From assembly GCF_004765785.1 (NCBI RefSeq), contig NZ_SBIT01000016.1, forward strand, positions 1-64,000: DNA of 64,000 nt. The letters are read 5' to 3'. Origin of the DNA: Halorussus ruber (lineage in GTDB: Archaea > Halobacteriota > Halobacteria > Halobacteriales > Haladaptataceae). How positions within the stretch are numbered: position 1 is the stretch's first letter; every line of letters begins with the position of its first letter. The notes beneath the pieces were generated by a model. That model did no database searches. It was not told where the DNA came from and worked only from the letters and a program-made list of their open reading frames with translations. The position numbers were made by a program, and so were the translations under genes. Below are positions 31,478 to 39,055 of this stretch, in pieces.

Positions 31478-31871
31478 CGTGCTTTTCCTTACGTTCATGC
31501 ATGGTAAACCCTGTGTTTCGGTGTATGCCGCGCGTCAGACGGCGGCGAGAAGCCAACTCGATTCGGTGCAACCCCATTCCATCACCGAACCAGCACACTG
31601 CTTTTATACCGGTACTCTCGGAATCAACCCGTTTCGGTTTAGTTTCGGGAACTAAACCGGAATCGGTTGATTTTGAAAACTCAGGAGTTATTAACTGTTC
31701 TTCTGGGGTCAGGAGACGAGCGTCTCTCGAATCCACCCCGAGCCGGTACCACAGCGACGGTCCGGAAAGTCCAGAACACTACGTTGAGCAACCTACACCG
31801 ATATTTAAAGTATTCATATGATTCCTAAAGAAACATTTAGATATGCCATTCGCTACTTCGAGCGAGGAGCC
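31478..31871. other. Intergenic region with a long hairpin
   Basis: No gene supported; two ORFs across it have no protein-like composition. It contains a strong TATA-like ggtataaaagc (minus strand, about 31590-31602), an extended inverted repeat at 31624-31670, and AT-rich DNA at 31800-31860. The hairpin lies between the start of the minus-strand zinc-knuckle gene and the end of the helicase operon. Confidence 0.6.
31624..31670. repeat. Long inverted repeat (near-continuous 21-bp stem)
   Basis: Inner arms CGGTTTAGTT (31635-31644) and AACTAAACCG (31650-31659) are perfect complements around a TCGGG loop. Outer arms TCAACC (31624-31629) and GGTTGA (31665-31670) also match, and the intervening five bases pair apart from one mismatch and wobbles. 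It could fold as RNA or act as an operator. Confidence 0.75.
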
Positions 31872-34800
31872 TCACTCTGCCCGGAACTCGTCGTCGTAGG
31901 CGAACTCGTCACCGGGACACCCGAGCGAGCGATGCTCGCAGTACTCGCAGTGGGGACCGGGCGTGTAGTTGTCGAACGAGGAGTCGTCGGCGGCGCGGAG
32001 GTCCTCGCGGAGGTCCGCCCACATCTCGGCCAACTCCTCGGCGGTGAACAACTGGGTGTCCGGCCCGGCCTCGCCGACGTAGACGTAGCCAGCGTGGGTG
32101 ACCTCGGCGTCGAACCGGTCGCAGGCCCGGACGTAGAGCTGTAACTGGTGGCTCTCCTCGAAGCTCTTCGTGGCGTAGCTGGTCTTGTAGTCGACGACCG
32201 CGAGGCCGCCGTCGGGGTGGTCCCGAACCGAGTCGATGTAGCCGGTGACCGCGCCGTCGACCTCGGGCACGTCGTCAATCTCGATGGGGACCTCGACACC
32301 GACCGCCGACCACTCGGACGCGCGGGTCTCGAAGTACCGGTCGATGCAGTCCAGCGCCGGGTCGAGCGCGTGGGCGAGGTCCTCGCTCCGGGCCAGCCAG
32401 CGACACGCCTCCTTCCACTCGCCGACCTCGTCGTAGTCGCGCCAGTAGGCCAGTTCCGCGACGGCGTGGAACAGCGACCCCACGTCGGTCCGGTGATGGC
32501 CGGACGAATCCGGTCCCGACCCCGACCGCGGGTCGGGGAAGGCACCAACCACGTGGTCGAGGACGTGCTTGCGCTCGCAGTCCCGGACCGCTTCGAGCGC
32601 GGTGTGACTGTGCTGGCGCGACAGTTCCACGTCGAGTTCCTGCCCGAGCGGCGCGTCGGCGAACCGCGAGGTGTCGGTGTCGTCGTCCGCCAGCGTCCCG
32701 GCGACGACCTCGTCGGCGAACTTCAGCGTGTCTTCGAGCGCCTCCTCGGTCGATAGCTCCCGACCGTAGTAGGTAATCGTGCCGGGGTCCTCGTCCACGC
32801 CCCGGTTGACGACTTCCGTATAGTCGCGGACGGCCTCGGGGTTGGCCTCGGCAATCTCGTCGTAGCTGTCCGTCAGGGCCTCCCAGACGCGCATTCGGGG
32901 ACCCTCCGACGACCACGCTATCGGCGCGTCGCTGTCGGCACCCGCCAGCAGGTCGTCTATCATCCGCGCGGTCGGGTCGTCGTCGGACACGTCGTTGCCG
33001 AACAGGAAGAGGTTCTCCTTGGCGCGGGTGATGGCGACGTGGAGGACGCGCCACTCTTCGGCGACCTGCGACTCCCGGCAGTCGCCCCGGAGGGGGTCGT
33101 CGAGTTCGCCCGCCACGTCCTCGACCAGCACGTCGTAGTTGTAGAGTTTCTCCTGATACCGCGAGAGCGTGATGTGGCCGAAGTCCTCCTCGGTGAGGAA
33201 GGGCACCAAGACCGTGTCGAAGTCTAACCCCTTGGCCTGATGAATCGTCATCACGTCCACGGCGTCCTCGGACTCGGGACCGGTGCTGGTGGCGGTGTCG
33301 TCACTTCCGGCCAGCAGGTGCGCCCGGCGCTCCAGATGGGTGACGAACTCGTCGGTGAGACGCGACTGGACTGGACTGTCGTTGAACGACGAAATCAACC
33401 GCTCGATGTTGTGGAGCGCGTCGCGGTCCACGTCGCGGAGGAACCACTCGATTCGGGTCTCGCGCTTGAGGTGGCGGTAGAGTTCCGAAATCGAGTGGGT
33501 CGCCGAGACCTCTTGGAGGGTCTCGTAGTCCGCCATCGCCTCGGCCACCGCGTCGGGGTCCGCCAGTTCGTCCTCGGCGTCACCAGCGCCAGCGAGGGCG
33601 TCGTACCCCTCGGGAATCGTCTCACCGGCCCGGAGGAGACCGTCCACGTCGGCCTCCGGAACCCGGTAGAGGTGCAACAGCACGCGCTGCCAACTCACGT
33701 CGTCGCCCGGCGAGACCAGTATTCGGAGGTACGACAGGACGGTCCGAAGGCCCTGACTCAGGTCGCTGGCCGTGTCGTCCGACAGCGTGTAAGGAATGCT
33801 GTCGGCGTCGAGTTGCTCGGCAACTTCACGGGCCTGTTTGTTTCGGCGGACCAGCACCGCGATGTCCGAGAGGTCCCGGCCGGTCACGTCGTCGAACCGG
33901 CCCGTCAGCAGGTTCGAAATCGCCGTGCTGACCTGTTCGGTGGTCTGTTCCTCCTCGCTATCGACCTTGAAGACGTTCGGCGGTGCCGGGTCCCTGTTCG
34001 ACTCGATGGTCTGCTTCCCGCGGCCGAGATTGTTCGTCAGGTCCAAAATCGGCTGGCGCGACCGGAAGTTGAGTTCGAGGTCGATTGCCTCGAAGGAGTC
34101 GGGCAGGTTCGACATGTTCTCGGGGTCTTGGCCCCGCCACTCGTGGATGGCCTGGTCGCTGTCGCCGACGACAACGATGTCGAGGTCGTCGCGCAACTCC
34201 TCGACCAGTTCGAGTTGGGACTCGTCGGTGTCCTGAAACTCATCGCAGTAGACGGCGTCCCACTGGCCAAGCACGTCGTCTCGGACCGTCTCGTCCCTGA
34301 GGAGCGAGACGGCCTCGTGGATGAGTTCGTCGTAGTCGAAGGCCCCTCGTTCGTCCAAGACCTCGGTGTAGGCCTCGTAAGCGTCCACGAAGGCCCGCGA
34401 GCGACGGAGCATGTGGACGAACTCAGTAAGGCGACCCATCGGGGTTTGTTTTACCGATTTTATCTGATTGTCATTGAAGAGGACCTCGGGAAGTAACTCC
34501 TCAGCTTTGGCCAGATCATCGGTTGCCCGAAAGTGGTCAGCCGCGTTCTCGGCGGTGTCGCCCATCGCTTCGAGGTGGTCACTAACGACCGAGTGGATAT
34601 GGTCTGGAGCGTCGAACTGGTCGGCCTTTCGGTAGTAGACGCGGGCTAGCTGGTCGCACCGCTCGGCTATCTCGTCACTCTTACTCCAGAGGTCGTTTTT
34701 ATCCACACCGACAACCTCTGAGGCCATCTCTCGAAGAGCCTCAACCAATCCAAGGAGGTCCCGAAGGTCGTCGTCCGCCGGGAGGTACGCCCGAACGTCG

Positions 34801-35309
34801 TCGGGCGCGACCGCCTCTCGGCGCATGCGTTCGACGAACGTCTTCAGCCCGGCGATTCCGGCGGTGCGGTCGTCCACGCCGCCGGGGAGCGGCCTGCCCG
34901 GTGCGACGAACGAGAAATCGACCTCGTCGTAGACCGACTCGATGAGGTTCGGCCGGTCCTCCTCGGTGACGAGCTCGAACTCGGGCGAGACGCCGAGGTA
35001 GTAGGCGTAGTCCCGAAGCAACTGGTAGGCGAACGAGTGGTAGGTGTAAACGTCCACCTCGAAGGCGTCGTCCGGGCCGAGGTTCTCCCGGAGTTTGTCC
35101 TGAATCGCGTGGGCGGCCTCGTTGGCGAACGTGAGGACCAGCAACCTGCTCGGGGGCGTCTCCCGCTCTCGAATCTCCTTTCGGAGTCGCTCGACCATCG
35201 TCGTGGTCTTGCCGGACCCGGCGACGGCCTCTACCTTGTGTGCGCTTCCGGTGGCGTTTATGACGGCGGGTTGGTTTCCTTTCGGGTCGAAGGTGCTGTC
35301 GTCAGTCAT
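31872..35309 (-). CDS. UvrD/AddA-like SF1 helicase with C-terminal Fe-S PD-(D/E)XK nuclease domain
   Basis: 1145 aa, the last gene of a three-gene operon. SF1A helicase motifs in order: Q-motif near 12, Walker A AVAGSGKTTT at 28-37, DEFQD (II), GDSDQAI (III), LNFRSR (IV), HQAKGLDFDTV (V) and VAITRAKENL (VI). The C-terminal nuclease has the catalytic DYKT at 1040-1043 followed by QLQLY, with cysteines of a Fe-S or zinc cluster: DCERK upstream and CEYC (1121, 1124) plus Cys1131. The arrangement matches AddA/RecB-type end-resection enzymes. ATG 35309 overlaps the stop of the preceding gene (ATGA). Predicted role is processing double-strand ends in repair or defence. Confidence 0.9.
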   Translation of the reverse strand: MTDDSTFDPKGNQPAVINATGSAHKVEAVAGSGKTTTMVERLRKEIRERETPPSRLLVLTFANEAAHAIQDKLRENLGPDDAFEVDVYTYHSFAYQLLRDYAYYLGVSPEFELVTEEDRPNLIESVYDEVDFSFVAPGRPLPGGVDDRTAGIAGLKTFVERMRREAVAPDDVRAYLPADDDLRDLLGLVEALREMASEVVGVDKNDLWSKSDEIAERCDQLARVYYRKADQFDAPDHIHSVVSDHLEAMGDTAENAADHFRATDDLAKAEELLPEVLFNDNQIKSVKQTPMGRLTEFVHMLRRSRAFVDAYEAYTEVLDERGAFDYDELIHEAVSLLRDETVRDDVLGQWDAVYCDEFQDTDESQLELVEELRDDLDIVVVGDSDQAIHEWRGQDPENMSNLPDSFEAIDLELNFRSRQPILDLTNNLGRGKQTIESNRDPAPPNVFKVDSEEEQTTEQVSTAISNLLTGRFDDVTGRDLSDIAVLVRRNKQAREVAEQLDADSIPYTLSDDTASDLSQGLRTVLSYLRILVSPGDDVSWQRVLLHLYRVPEADVDGLLRAGETIPEGYDALAGAGDAEDELADPDAVAEAMADYETLQEVSATHSISELYRHLKRETRIEWFLRDVDRDALHNIERLISSFNDSPVQSRLTDEFVTHLERRAHLLAGSDDTATSTGPESEDAVDVMTIHQAKGLDFDTVLVPFLTEEDFGHITLSRYQEKLYNYDVLVEDVAGELDDPLRGDCRESQVAEEWRVLHVAITRAKENLFLFGNDVSDDDPTARMIDDLLAGADSDAPIAWSSEGPRMRVWEALTDSYDEIAEANPEAVRDYTEVVNRGVDEDPGTITYYGRELSTEEALEDTLKFADEVVAGTLADDDTDTSRFADAPLGQELDVELSRQHSHTALEAVRDCERKHVLDHVVGAFPDPRSGSGPDSSGHHRTDVGSLFHAVAELAYWRDYDEVGEWKEACRWLARSEDLAHALDPALDCIDRYFETRASEWSAVGVEVPIEIDDVPEVDGAVTGYIDSVRDHPDGGLAVVDYKTSYATKSFEESHQLQLYVRACDRFDAEVTHAGYVYVGEAGPDTQLFTAEELAEMWADLREDLRAADDSSFDNYTPGPHCEYCEHRSLGCPGDEFAYDDEFRAE

Positions 35310-36271
35310 CGGGACTCCTCCGAGGAGAACTCGGGCGATTGCGGTCGGCCGGGCGATTCGTCGGCGGCGCGGTGGCGGTCGGTGAACGAGAGTTCGGATT
35401 CGAGGTAGTCGGGGCAGGCGTTCTGGTACGCGCAGTACGAACACGACGAGTCGATAATCTCGTCGAACTGCCACTCTCTGGGGTCGGTCTCACCGCTCAG
35501 AAGCGCCGCGGCCCGGTCGGCGACCAGCGCGTTCACGTCGGCCCGTTCCTCGTCGTAGGCACCCCCGAAGTGACGCTGTTCGACGTCGACGTAAATCTCG
35601 CCGGGAGCGTCGTAGGCGGGCCGACTGTCTTCGAGGAGCGAGACGTAGGCGAAGTCATAGTTCGGCCCCAGTCCGTGTTCGTTCATCAGCCCCCGGATGA
35701 CGATGGCCGCCCTGACGAGACTGCCGATTTGCCGGGGATAGAATCCCTCGCCCTCCTCGAAGCGCCGGACGTTGTCGTCGTACCACCCGACGTTCAGCAC
35801 GCCGTGCAGGTTCGGCCGGTAGTCGAGCGCGAGATAGCCGCCGTCGCGCTCGACCACGGCGTCGATTGTCGTCTCGTATCGGACACCGCCGCGCTCGTAG
35901 CCGACCGTCTCGTCGGCCGCGACTAACCGCTCGCCGTGTTCGTGTCCATCGGCGTCGAAGTAGGCCGCGATGGCGGCCGCGACGACCTCGCCGTCGTACC
36001 GCGCCTGTTCGTCCACGAGGTACGACGACGGAGACGAGCGACGTAGCTCCTCGAACCGGTCGCAGGCCGCCGCGGTGCGCTCGTCCGGCGATGCATCGTC
36101 GAGACGCAGGCCCGCGATAATCGACCCGCGCAACAGCACTCGACGGTGTTCGTCGCGGCGGTCGAGACTCTCCTTCGGCGGAGACACCGGGCGCTCGTGT
36201 TCGAACTCGTACTTTCGCGGACACTCGAGGTGGGACGCGATTTGGGCCGCCGTGACGACGTCGTCGGCCAT
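35306..36271 (-). CDS. Cas4/RecB-like Fe-S nuclease (PD-(D/E)XK)
   Basis: 321 aa, middle gene of the operon. Four cysteines in the AddB/Cas4 order: Cys17 (LECPRKY) and Cys277, Cys280, Cys286 (CSYCAYQNAC), which in the family hold a 4Fe-4S cluster. The nuclease core has Asp137 (TIDAV), Asp150 in LALDYRP, with Arg152 at the position of the usual catalytic Lys, and a following RQIGSLVRAA helix in place of the QxxxY motif. The changes suggest weakened or altered catalysis. ATG 36271 overlaps the previous stop (TGATG). Probably a subunit that works with the helicase. Confidence 0.82.
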   Translation of the reverse strand: MADDVVTAAQIASHLECPRKYEFEHERPVSPPKESLDRRDEHRRVLLRGSIIAGLRLDDASPDERTAAACDRFEELRRSSPSSYLVDEQARYDGEVVAAAIAAYFDADGHEHGERLVAADETVGYERGGVRYETTIDAVVERDGGYLALDYRPNLHGVLNVGWYDDNVRRFEEGEGFYPRQIGSLVRAAIVIRGLMNEHGLGPNYDFAYVSLLEDSRPAYDAPGEIYVDVEQRHFGGAYDEERADVNALVADRAAALLSGETDPREWQFDEIIDSSCSYCAYQNACPDYLESELSFTDRHRAADESPGRPQSPEFSSEESR

Positions 36272-38478
36272 CACTCACCACCCCCCGTCGCGGCGGGACT
36301 TCCGTCTCGGTTCGCGTCCCGATTTTCACCACGGTCCTCGTCGGGACGAACCGCCCCGCGGGCGAGGTCGAACTGGGTCCGGACCGCCCGCTCGAACCGG
36401 GGGTTCACGTCGTCGCTGTCGTCCAGCACTCGCTGAATCGCCGCGAGGGTCTCCTCGGCGGATTCGAGTTCGACCTCGCCGCCGGTGCTGGCCTCGGCCT
36501 GCACTTCTTCGAGTTCGTGCCACGGTTGGGACAAAATCTCGGTCGAGGCCTTCCCGAGGGTGTGGATGTCCCGGTCTTCGCCAGCACCTTCGACCGTTTC
36601 GAGCGTCAGGGCGGGATGGTTCTGGACGGCGCGGAGGTAGCGCGAGCGATGTTGTCGTCGGCCGACAGCGCCCTGCGACTGCTCGTAGGTGCAGAAGTAG
36701 AGACACTCTTCGGCGGCCCGGGCACCGATGGCGAGTTGGCGTCGAGCGCGTTCGTCGTGATACCGCTCGAACTCGTCGCCGGAGACGTCCGCGACCGTCG
36801 CGTAGGTGTCGGTGACCTCGTCGTCGGTCGGGCGAGTGACCGCCGGATACCCCTCCATCTGGGTTATCCACGTCGTCGGAAAGAGCGGCGAGAGCATCTC
36901 CTCGCCCGGATACTCGGCGTCTACGACGTTGAGGAGGAAGACGGCCTTTCGAGAGTCGTTCTTGACCAGCGCCGTGTCGCCAACGGTGACCCCGCCCTCC
37001 GCGACGTTGACCTCGGCGGTGTGGGCGTAGGGCGCGTCGTAGGTGATGGCGCGTTTGAGCATCTGAGCGAACTGGTACCAGTTGCTTTCGAGGAAGTCCT
37101 GTTCGTCCACGAACTCGGCGATAGAGACGAGCCGGGAGATGTTCCGGAACTGCTCGCGGGCGTCGATGTCGGCGGTCTCCTCGGCGATTCGTCGCTTGAG
37201 GTCGGTCGTGACTATCCAGTTTTTGAGGCTCTCGGCCACCGAGCGGGGGTCTACGCACTCGTCGATGAGGTCGTCGTCCACGTCCGGAACGCGGGCCGTC
37301 AGGAGGTCGAAGGCGTGGTTCTCGTCGTCGATGTGGTACTGGGCGAGGGCGTGGAGTTCGCGGACCGCCAAGTCCTGTTCGAGACCGTTGACCCCGGCCG
37401 AGGCGGTCGGCACTCCCGAGCGTCGGAGAATCCGGCGGACGCGGGGCATGGGGTCGCCGATGGTCCGGAGCAGGACCGCGAAGTCGTCGTACTCCCAGCC
37501 GTGCTTCCCGCGGAGGTACTCGATTTCGTTGGCGACCTCCTCGACCTGCTGGTCCAGCGTGGCCGCCTCGACGAGGCGGGCGGTCGCCTCGCCGTCGCAG
37601 TCGCCGGTCGCCAGAAACGCGCCGAACTGCTGGCCGACCGTCTCGCGTTCGGACTCCGAAACCGAGTCTCGGGCGGCATCGCTGGTCGTGTGGTCCACCA
37701 CGGTAAGCCCGTCGGCGAGGCGCTCGACGCCGCCGGGTTCCTTCTTCACGCGTTCGATGCTGGCCTGATTCTCGGCGACGCAGTAGAGGTCCGCGTTCCG
37801 CGTCAGCGACGCCAGATACGCCCGGTCGATTGCGACGCACTCCTCGAACTCCGCGACCACCACCGCGTCGAACTCGCGTTCGACCTGCTCGCGGACGCCG
37901 GGTCGGTCGATGGCCTCGACGGCCCGCGAAATCGTGTCGGCCTGCTCGACGAGACCTCGCTGGTCCAGTTTCTCGTGAAACGAGTCGTTCACGTCCGCGA
38001 GTTCCGCGAGGAGGTCGTCGTACTCGCCCACCTGGTCGGGCAGGTCGAACCCGCCCTGCCACGCGGCGTCGAGGAGCAACTGACCCACGTCGCGGCCGAA
38101 CGAGTCGTGTTCGCTGGCGGTCTCGAAGTACGACGACCAGTTGTAGCCGTCGAGGACCCGGGCGAGGAATTCGATGCGCTCCTCGTAGGAGAGGAGGCGC
38201 TTGTCGGGAGCGGCCTCGTGGAGGACGGTGGCGGCGTGGCGGGGGAGCGACTGGACGTTCGGGCGAACCGAGCAGTCGGCCCGCTCGCGGAGGTCGGCCG
38301 TGAACTCGGCGACGCCGTTCGGGAGGCGCTTGAGGACCAACACGTCTTGGGGCTTGTCGACCGCATCGAGGGCCTCATCGAAGACGGCCGCGACGCGGTC
38401 GGCGAGCGAACCGCCCTCGAACGGGAGAACGTGGAGCGTCCCGTCGAGCGAGGGAGTCTGTCGTGGCGTACTCTGCAT
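36271..38478 (-). CDS. AddB/RecC-like SF1 helicase relative without ATP-binding motif
   Basis: 735 aa, first gene of the operon. The later helicase regions are traceable: YDDFAVLLRT (motif-IV area, about 333-342), VFLLNVVDAEYPGEE (motif-V area, about 510) and ERARRQLAIGARAAEECLYF (motif-VI area, about 585). At the N-terminus, where GxxGxGKT should stand, is LPFEGGSLADRV (18-29), and motif II reads AEFEEC (209-214) instead of DExx. It therefore looks like an inactive scaffold, as RecC and part of AddB are. The last 40 residues are disordered and polar. A TATA-like ctatttacg lies about 33 bases before ATG 38478. Confidence 0.78.
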   Translation of the reverse strand: MQSTPRQTPSLDGTLHVLPFEGGSLADRVAAVFDEALDAVDKPQDVLVLKRLPNGVAEFTADLRERADCSVRPNVQSLPRHAATVLHEAAPDKRLLSYEERIEFLARVLDGYNWSSYFETASEHDSFGRDVGQLLLDAAWQGGFDLPDQVGEYDDLLAELADVNDSFHEKLDQRGLVEQADTISRAVEAIDRPGVREQVEREFDAVVVAEFEECVAIDRAYLASLTRNADLYCVAENQASIERVKKEPGGVERLADGLTVVDHTTSDAARDSVSESERETVGQQFGAFLATGDCDGEATARLVEAATLDQQVEEVANEIEYLRGKHGWEYDDFAVLLRTIGDPMPRVRRILRRSGVPTASAGVNGLEQDLAVRELHALAQYHIDDENHAFDLLTARVPDVDDDLIDECVDPRSVAESLKNWIVTTDLKRRIAEETADIDAREQFRNISRLVSIAEFVDEQDFLESNWYQFAQMLKRAITYDAPYAHTAEVNVAEGGVTVGDTALVKNDSRKAVFLLNVVDAEYPGEEMLSPLFPTTWITQMEGYPAVTRPTDDEVTDTYATVADVSGDEFERYHDERARRQLAIGARAAEECLYFCTYEQSQGAVGRRQHRSRYLRAVQNHPALTLETVEGAGEDRDIHTLGKASTEILSQPWHELEEVQAEASTGGEVELESAEETLAAIQRVLDDSDDVNPRFERAVRTQFDLARGAVRPDEDRGENRDANRDGSPAATGGGE

Positions 38479-38983
38479 TGGCTATAATCCGGGCATTACT
38501 GCACCATCGTAAATAGATGTCTGTATTCGTGTAGCTGCGGAATTATAACCGTTCTACAGAACAGGGGAAGCGCGGCTACTCGGTGCTGTCAGGCCATCGA
38601 CTGTCCCGCGAACGAACCGAGTGAGCGGACCGAGGAGCGACCAACGGGAGCGACGCAGGGGTTTCATCAACGGTTTACAAGGCCGCTCCTCTCGGGGCGC
38701 GGCCGAAGTAAAAGGTTGTAGTGGCCTCGCTGGGACTGAGCAAACGCGGTTCGTTTGCGAGGGTCAGCGAGTCCACGACTGTCGGACTGAACAAAGTGAA
38801 CAAGACAGGAGTGGACTCGCTGGGATTTGAACCCGGAACCAGACGGTCCGGGCATGCGGCGCTTCGCGCCGGTCCGGGCGTGCGACTGGTAGGGGTTCAA
38901 ATCGGCTCGTCACGACGTTGCGCTCGCAGAAGTGGCGAGTACACGCTACGCGGTACTCGCCGTGTTGCTCGCGCAAAAGGTAG
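38479..38983. other. Intergenic region with broken tRNA-Ala 3' ends
   Basis: No gene. Lies between the helicase operon and tRNA-Ala(CGC). It contains one exact 25-base copy of the tRNA 3' end (38810-38834), weaker copies at 38718-38739 (same orientation) and 38765-38776 (inverted), and a GGGTTCAAAT piece near 38892. ORFs here translate the tRNA fragments and are artefacts. Confidence 0.75.
38718..38834 (-). repeat. tRNA-Ala 3'-end fragments (att-like direct repeats)
   Basis: agtggactcgctgggattt plus gaaccc at 38810-38834 is identical over 25 bases to 38982-39006, the T-arm/acceptor end of the intact tRNA. A degenerate copy gtagtggcctcgctgggactga lies at 38718-38739. Integrative elements of archaea insert at tRNA 3' ends and leave such repeats. 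No integrase gene remains nearby. Confidence 0.75.
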
Positions 38984-39055
38984 TGGACTCGCTGGGATTT
39001 GAACCCAGGGCCTCTTCCTTGCGAAGGAAGCGATCTACCGCTGATCTACGAGCCC
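38984..39055 (-). tRNA. tRNA-Ala (anticodon CGC)
   Basis: 72 bases without encoded CCA. Acceptor GGGCTCG pairs with CGAGTCC including the G3:U70 pair that identifies alanine tRNAs. D-arm GATC-AGCGGTA-GATC, anticodon stem CTTCC/GGAAG with loop TTCGCAA (anticodon CGC), T-arm CTGGG-TTCAAAT-CCCAG, discriminator A. A taataag box about 35 bases upstream fits its promoter. Confidence 0.96.

Follow-up and report, generated by a model that had tools for sequence, protein, structure and literature searches.

A three-gene haloarchaeal cassette as candidate AddAB-type DNA-end machine with AddB split in two

The window analyzed here comprises 64,000 nucleotides of contig NZ_SBIT01000016.1 of Halorussus ruber. 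It contains three consecutive genes, termed A, B and C, which are flanked by a tRNA-Ala gene and a Cys-rich ORF (Table 1). An earlier note on this DNA had described three genes overlapping at TGATG and ATGA, and the positions of the open reading frames bore this out.

Table 1. Features of the A-B-C cassette and of its insertion site in the window.
Feature	Position	Strand	Remarks
Gene A	36271..38478	-	735 aa; catalytically dead SF1 helicase-fold protein, AddB/RecC helicase-like scaffold (predicted)
Gene B	35306..36271	-	ATG start; 321 aa; PD-(D/E)XK fold, four cysteines (Fe-S type); predicted pseudo-nuclease
Gene C	31872..35309	-	1145 aa; UvrD/AdnB/AddA-like SF1 helicase + Fe-S-type PD-(D/E)XK nuclease; all motifs intact
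TGATG overlap, stop of A / start of B	36269..36273	-	
ATGA overlap, stop of B / start of C	35306..35309	-	
tRNA-Ala (CGC), insertion-site tRNA	38983..39055	-	locus in 12/12 same-genus genomes searched
Exact copy of tRNA-Ala 3' end, att-type scar	38811..38833	-	23 bp; none expected by chance
Second, partial copy of tRNA 3' end	38721..38735	-	15 bp, 1 mismatch
Inserted segment with A-B-C	31543..38716	not applicable	from comparison with congeners

The cassette had been placed beside tRNA-Ala integration scars, and indeed both the tRNA-Ala gene and repeats of its 3' end are present, with the site empty or filled by other cargo in congeners. In congener G005 the insert is absent, with only about 120 bp between the two flanks; four further congeners (G004, G015, G010 and G007) carry other cargo in its place. 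As the site is empty in a congener, the window cassette, located downstream of tRNA-Ala, was probably acquired. A viral origin was rejected, since viral contigs yielded no relative of A.

The earlier note had made its proposal dependent on whether the genes stay together in relatives, and the neighbourhood survey showed that they do. At all loci of a first set (24/24) the three genes were adjacent in constant order, and overlaps of 4 or 8 nt were observed between them in most of these relatives. Adjacency and order were retained at 102 of 104 loci of an enlarged set, the two exceptions being contigs which end inside the cassette. Wherever the contig was long enough to check, A, B and C were present jointly, and A and B were separate genes in the window and at every locus examined. 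Co-occurrence and overlaps of the three genes are above chance. Overall, the cassette was found in more than one third of the haloarchaeal genomes sampled.

Gene A had been read as an SF1 helicase fold without Walker A, an assignment that structure prediction could have overturned and instead supported. The AF2 model of A (pLDDT 79, built, as that of B, from only 25 aligned sequences) aligned with AddB (residues 2-766) with a Z of 23 over 615 residues and with UvrD with a Z of 28. The alignment with AddB extends to model residues 702-708, past the UvrD fold, and the helicase fold itself is equally near to UvrD and AddB by sequence and Z-score. In profile searches A found AddB at an E-value of 1.8e-8 and C at 5e-9. 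A Walker A motif was absent from 98/98 homologues, and in motif II the sequence DEFQD is replaced by VEFEE.

For gene B a PDDEXK_1 match (Pfam, E-value of 4.4e-7) was obtained. The best structural match of its AF2 model (pLDDT 82) was AdnA 791-1039 (Z 16), and AddB 785-1138 was matched with a Z of 14.8. Profile searches against the PDB, and likewise a single-sequence search with an active B, gave nothing useful. The active site of the window B reads DYR, and the catalytic H, K and Q are gone (motif table), as in all readable members of its clade. Nevertheless, the four cysteines are retained in all complete copies. Over 98 loci the active site of B behaves in an all-or-none manner: the sister clade keeps the full motif, and the active and lost states fall on the two sides of one branch (SH-aLRT 100). 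B is under purifying selection and is as constrained as A and C (dN/dS of 0.27 for B, 0.27 for A and 0.22 for C). Thus, of the initial assignment of B as four-cysteine Cas4/AddB nuclease, fold and cysteines stood, while an active nuclease is improbable in the window's clade; measured against Cas4, which combines an active PD-(D/E)XK motif with a four-cysteine Fe-S site, B has the cysteines and lacks the catalytic K, H and Q. Judged from these residues, the window B is probably a dead nuclease, which would make C the sole active nuclease, a situation comparable to RecBC. In the window B, the two acidic residues, D137 and the D within DYR, are still present, and some residual nuclease activity may therefore persist.

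Gene C, described before as a UvrD helicase whose end is a DYKT nuclease bearing cysteines of its own, showed UvrD N- and C-domains and a PDDEXK_1 domain (Pfam). Conserved throughout the family are Walker A, DEFQD, the nuclease residues H/D/DYK/Q and four cysteines, which agrees with that description; the catalytic motifs are intact in every complete copy. A profile search of C against the PDB ranked PcrA/UvrD, AdnB, AddA and RecB in this order, and the profile of the nuclease domain found AdnA as first match. A single-sequence PDB search with the nuclease domain gave nothing useful. Gabija was considered and dismissed: the PADLOC GajB matches of C reflect generic UvrD similarity, and the neighbours A and B are of helicase-fold and PD-(D/E)XK type, not of the OLD type of GajA.

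We propose, at a probability of about 70%, that A, B and C constitute an AddAB-type DNA-end machine with AddB split in two. According to the models, A plus B is the bacterial AddB architecture cut at the linker, followed by the AddA/AdnB-like helicase-nuclease C. The gene order, first regarded as unlike the bacterial one, turned out to be the same: as A and B match successive parts of AddB, the arrangement is addB(N)-addB(C)-addA and corresponds to bacterial addB-addA. Two families of methanogen-side archaea carry a two-gene addB-addA, also in this order. In the proposed machine C would be the single active 3'-5' SF1 motor with an Fe-S-type nuclease, and A, without ATP binding, would act on the unwound 3' strand as a guide or scanner, in the manner of the helicase-like part of AddB and RecC. 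B would provide the AddB-type nuclease-fold domain as its own polypeptide, with a purely structural role in the window's clade. With the catalytic residues of B lost, the C nuclease would have to do all the cutting there, as RecB does in RecBCD. The AddAB enzyme of B. subtilis has a single motor for its two nucleases, and its inactive helicase fold searches the DNA for Chi (PMC4824097). The haloarchaeal machine would likely serve to process the ends of broken chromosomes and to degrade foreign DNA in linear form. Complex formation, DNA-end dependence, polarity, regulation and physiological role are what we infer for this assembly. Haloarchaea carry Mre11-Rad50 (PMC7776575), and 56 of 59 haloarchaeal genomes, as well as H. 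volcanii, proved to encode a NurA domain, contrary to a statement in the same paper. The absence of HerA-NurA was consequently dropped as an argument for a need of the cassette, and end resection need not depend on it.

The family splits into two clades according to whether the B active site is kept or lost. The active-B clade is mobile and often plasmid-borne, with plasmids in several genera. pAgo was found near 12 of its 41 loci, mostly as a pAgo-PLD-A-B-C operon in which only a few to tens of bases separate pAgo, PLD and A; PLD was found near 19 of these loci and a DUF4143 AAA protein near 13, versus none of the three at the 55 loci of the window's clade. PMC11442185 mentions "a helicase-encoding gene" near some ago-agaP operons of the haloarchaeal APAP system. 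Such neighbours, together with the insertion of the window copy at a tRNA-Ala gene where congeners hold other cargo or nothing, would fit a mainly antiviral or anti-plasmid nuclease, an accessory of haloarchaeal pAgo-PLD (APAP), with the window copy as mobile defence cargo in a tRNA-Ala hotspot. We consider this possible but rather unlikely, as neither pAgo nor PLD lies next to the window cassette, the window genome has no Piwi domain, no viral contig yielded a relative of A, and the window's clade is near-core among Natrialbaceae, with A in 104 of 117 genomes, whereas a defence gene would be patchy.

A different question is whether A plus B derive from AddB at all, or represent a paralogue of a UvrD-Cas4-type fusion, the kin of C, that became split and inactivated and converged on AddAB: the same working with another origin. 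The C profile scored 336-343 bits against solo UvrD-Cas4 fusions of methanogen-side archaea and 203-233 bits against their AddA, and the A and B profiles likewise scored these fusions above AddB of the same archaea; however, bit scores are biased by the evolutionary rate of each family. The match of the A profile to C points in the same direction, and a nuclease-domain tree that lacks resolution, and does not join B to methanogen AddB, leaves room for it; for this reason common descent of the cassette with AddAB is not established. Against this origin, the model of A follows AddB over its long alignment including the region beyond the UvrD fold, and order and split point agree with AddB. We take independent assembly as a serious account which falls short of being probable. 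That there is no single machine, with C acting solo like UvrD-Cas4 fusions and A and B being a separate or decaying pair, appears very improbable: solo UvrD-Cas4 proteins without A and B do exist (PMC5704561) and B has lost its active site in the window's clade, but A, B and C were never found apart in 104 loci, contig ends excepted, the overlaps are conserved and B is under purifying selection.

AddAB, RecBCD and AdnAB are regarded as bacterial end-resection machines, and archaeal resection has been described via Mre11-Rad50 and HerA-NurA. The split AddAB-type cassette, conserved as three genes and near-core in Natrialbaceae, is a further candidate for archaeal end resection; a full-text literature search, with most subscription journals outside its coverage, found no paper describing it. 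The all-or-none loss of one nuclease offers a natural experiment on the coexistence of two-nuclease and one-nuclease designs. In the sister clade such a machine and a DNA-targeting Argonaute share one operon. This connects enzymes of DNA repair with antiviral defence, and the link proposed between RecBCD/AddAB and the guide DNA of pAgo (PMC10269773) becomes testable in haloarchaea that are genetically tractable. As a tentative and rather doubtful scenario, the split AddAB may have originated in haloarchaea within an Argonaute defence operon, where it processed DNA and possibly supplied or completed the guide-directed destruction of DNA. In one lineage one of the two nucleases may have been switched off, which turned the machine into a chromosomal repair enzyme acting on its own. 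If true, archaea repeated the transition from the two-nuclease design (AddAB) to the one-nuclease design (RecBC-like).

Compared with known systems, the cassette resembles APAP (pAgo plus PLD/AgaP) in that pAgo-PLD immediately precedes A-B-C in the active-B sister clade; the window cassette differs by having neither nearby, and the accessible text of PMC11442185 mentions a helicase only, not A and B. UvrD-Cas4 fusions show the same domain fusion as C, and solo archaeal members gave its highest scores; these proteins stand alone or are linked to restriction genes (PMC5704561), whereas C is always coupled to A and B. Concerning mycobacterial AdnAB, the AdnA nuclease was the best structural match of B and the first match of the C nuclease profile, and AdnB was among the best motor matches. 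However, AdnA is one helicase-nuclease polypeptide, and its counterpart here consists of two genes with the helicase motifs lost. RecBCD likewise has a single active nuclease (RecB, comparable to C) and an inactive nuclease-fold domain in the scaffold (RecC, comparable to A plus B), and A lacks ATP-binding motifs. In contrast to RecBCD, there is no RecD and no helicase-sized ORF after C in the window, RecC is one polypeptide, B retains four cysteines, and the C motor is nearer to UvrD/PcrA/AdnB than to RecB in the profile search. AddAB differs in that AddB is one polypeptide with a fused nuclease, here two genes, and carries a second active Fe-S nuclease, here probably dead in the window's clade with the motif present in the sister clade; moreover, C also bears the four-cysteine motif, and A is without Walker A. 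Nevertheless, C appears by its motifs to combine an active SF1A motor and a RecB-type nuclease in one fusion protein, and A is a partner with an inactivated helicase fold (Z 23 over 615 residues). Both systems combine one SF1 motor plus nuclease (C and AddA) with a dead helicase fold and, after it, a nuclease fold of the Fe-S kind (A plus B and AddB), in the order addB-addA.

The A-B-C cassette is a real and conserved three-part variant of the AddAB/AdnAB/RecBCD kind, apparently undescribed so far. The earlier note had three overlapping genes at this place, and the reading of open reading frames confirmed them, with A and B joined by TGATG and B and C by ATGA. Gene A gave no match in Pfam and in NCBIfam solely weak ones to DNA helicase II and AddB. 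Its structural model (mean pLDDT 79) aligned with UvrD (Z 28) and with AddB (Z 23), the latter over more residues (615; A 12-702 versus AddB 2-766), while a profile search of the PDB returned AddB (E 1.8e-8) and UvrD1 (E 3.1e-8). Walker A was missing from all 98 homologues, and A has VEFEE as motif II versus DEFQD in C, so that the proposed SF1-helicase-like protein without Walker A was recovered. For gene C, UvrD-helicase, UvrD_C and PDDEXK_1 were found in Pfam and the catalytic residues were intact wherever the copy was complete, in agreement with the suggested UvrD helicase ending in a nuclease. Profile matches of C were, in order, PcrA, UvrD, AdnB, AddA and RecB; AdnA came first for its nuclease domain.

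Coordinates of the cassette, its insertion site and related loci
Feature	Location	Strand	Remarks
Gene A	36271-38478	-	open reading frame
Gene B	35306-36271	-	open reading frame
Gene C	31872-35309	-	open reading frame
tRNA-Ala	38983-39055		flanks the cassette in the window
23-bp copy of tRNA-Ala 3' end	38811-38833		same flank as tRNA-Ala
Tyrosine-recombinase-like gene	L159:5964-7079, L161:11931-12977		near-identical in two congeners, beside partial tRNA-Ala copy, site of the window's cassette
Active-B operons	L119:5082-16382, L042:226-11502, L113, L115, L111, L114, L122		pAgo about 890 aa, PLD 727 aa, then A, B, C
Two-gene addB-addA	L165, L166, L167, L168		methanogen side; fused AddB, intact DYKT nuclease
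Single-gene UvrD-Cas4 fusions	L162:5647-8706, L163, L164		C-profile scores above those of the AddA proteins of L165-L168

The second gene had been taken for a four-cysteine Cas4/AddB nuclease. Its PDDEXK_1 domain, fold and cysteines fit that family, but the catalytic H, K and Q are gone, and the motif is DYR in the window and EYR in its congener. The model of B (pLDDT 82) aligned with the AdnA nuclease (791-1039; Z 16), ACE1, a Cas4 protein associated with Argonaute (Z 15), and AddB (785-1138; Z 14.8), and weakly with RecC. As A corresponds to AddB 2-766 and B to AddB 785-1138, the two together cover the whole of AddB, with the split falling at the linker that joins its parts. The bacterial order is addB-addA, hence the cassette has the same order and not, as first assumed, a different one. 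Among 98 non-redundant loci, two of them partly unreadable at contig ends, H, the K of DYK and Q were jointly kept or jointly lost, and the four cysteines were retained in every complete copy of either state. Judged from sequence, this nuclease is probably dead in the window's clade (dead-B clade), and B evolves under purifying selection, as do A and C (dN/dS: A 0.27, B 0.27, C 0.22). Our reading is that B was retained there as a structural domain.

Gene A was present in 24 of 99 related genomes (11 of 38 genera), in 107 of 292 genomes of a wider draw across the class (44 of 77 genera) and in 104 of 117 genomes of the Natrialbaceae, the family of Natrialba and Natrinema. All of the first 24 loci had A-B-C adjacent and in order, with overlaps mostly of 4 or 8 nt; overall this was found for 102 of 104 loci, the remaining two being cut by contig ends, and the three genes are thus conserved together in relatives. 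A plasmid of G053 carries a C shortened to about 529 aa (L038:7404-9056), likely a pseudogene or frameshift, with full length in the close relative L041. Another plasmid holds just the first 315 residues of A (G127:C3:306936-307859), probably a remnant.

A tree built from A and C together placed the dead-B and active-B states on the two sides of one branch (SH-aLRT 100); the window's cassette paired with that of congener G008 and next with those of Natrialba and Halohasta. As outgroup nucleases (AddB of the methanogen side, i.e., other classes of the same phylum) keep the motif intact, loss is the more parsimonious direction in this unrooted tree. The active-B sister clade is Argonaute-linked. 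Neighbors among its 41 loci were a Piwi-domain pAgo at 12, a PLD-family protein at 19, including some remnants, and a DUF4143 AAA protein at 13, versus 0 of 55 loci for all three in the window's clade (Fisher p 1e-5, 4e-9 and 4e-6; nominal, as related loci were counted). Complete operons read pAgo-PLD-A-B-C, with a few bases from PLD stop to A start and often a divergent DUF4143 AAA-ATPase upstream. G233 has a window-type cassette and a second, divergent A (C41:9098-11161), with a Piwi gene (32128-32535) at a distance of about 21 kb from the latter. Together pAgo and PLD make up the APAP system, which in Haloarcula hispanica was shown to restrict a virus as well as plasmids; on neighbors, that study mentions only a helicase gene close to some of the operons (PMC11442185). 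Guide DNA of bacterial pAgo is partly produced during RecBCD processing, and AddAB co-precipitates with TtAgo (PMC10269773). Given these data and the sister-clade operons, it is plausible that pAgo and the A-B-C machine would work as partners there.

The window's cassette was probably acquired, since its flanks, the tRNA-Ala side and a conserved segment ending at about 31542, lie about 120 bp apart in congener G005 and enclose other DNA in G004, G015, G010 and G007. The suspected tRNA-Ala integration scar was found as the 23-bp copy; a search for a second att copy at the far end of the insertion gave none. G008 carries this cassette too, at the corresponding position, and the donor was perhaps Natrialba-like. 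In G010 and G007 tyrosine-recombinase-like genes, named by eye from sequence, lie beside partial tRNA copies at the site. At this site L161 also contains a DNA polymerase B-like ORF.

Two methanogen-side families encode a fused AddB-like protein directly followed by an AddA-like one; a third has a single UvrD-Cas4 fusion with the top score against the C profile. As the deep branching of B, C, AddA, AddB and UvrD-Cas4 was not resolved in the nuclease-domain tree, we limit our claim to an AddAB-like architecture and, by inference, way of working, rather than proven descent. NurA-domain proteins occurred in almost every haloarchaeal genome searched (G000:C15:39501-40175 and 55 further genomes) and in H. 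volcanii, in contrast to a review reporting HerA and NurA as absent from the latter (PMC7776575).

In the AddAB of B. subtilis, unwinding is the work of a single SF1A motor; the 3' strand is cut by AddA and the 5' strand by AddB, whose dead helicase fold scans for Chi (PMC4824097). Mapped onto this enzyme, C would be motor plus nuclease, and A would serve as scaffold or scanner. B would cut the 5' strand in the sister clade and be a structural element only in the window's clade. That the proteins form a complex, depend on DNA ends, act with this strand polarity and respond to a Chi-like control, if there is one, is inferred. If the mapping holds, C would be the sole cutter of the window's enzyme, which would then resemble RecBCD, where RecB is the single cutting subunit.
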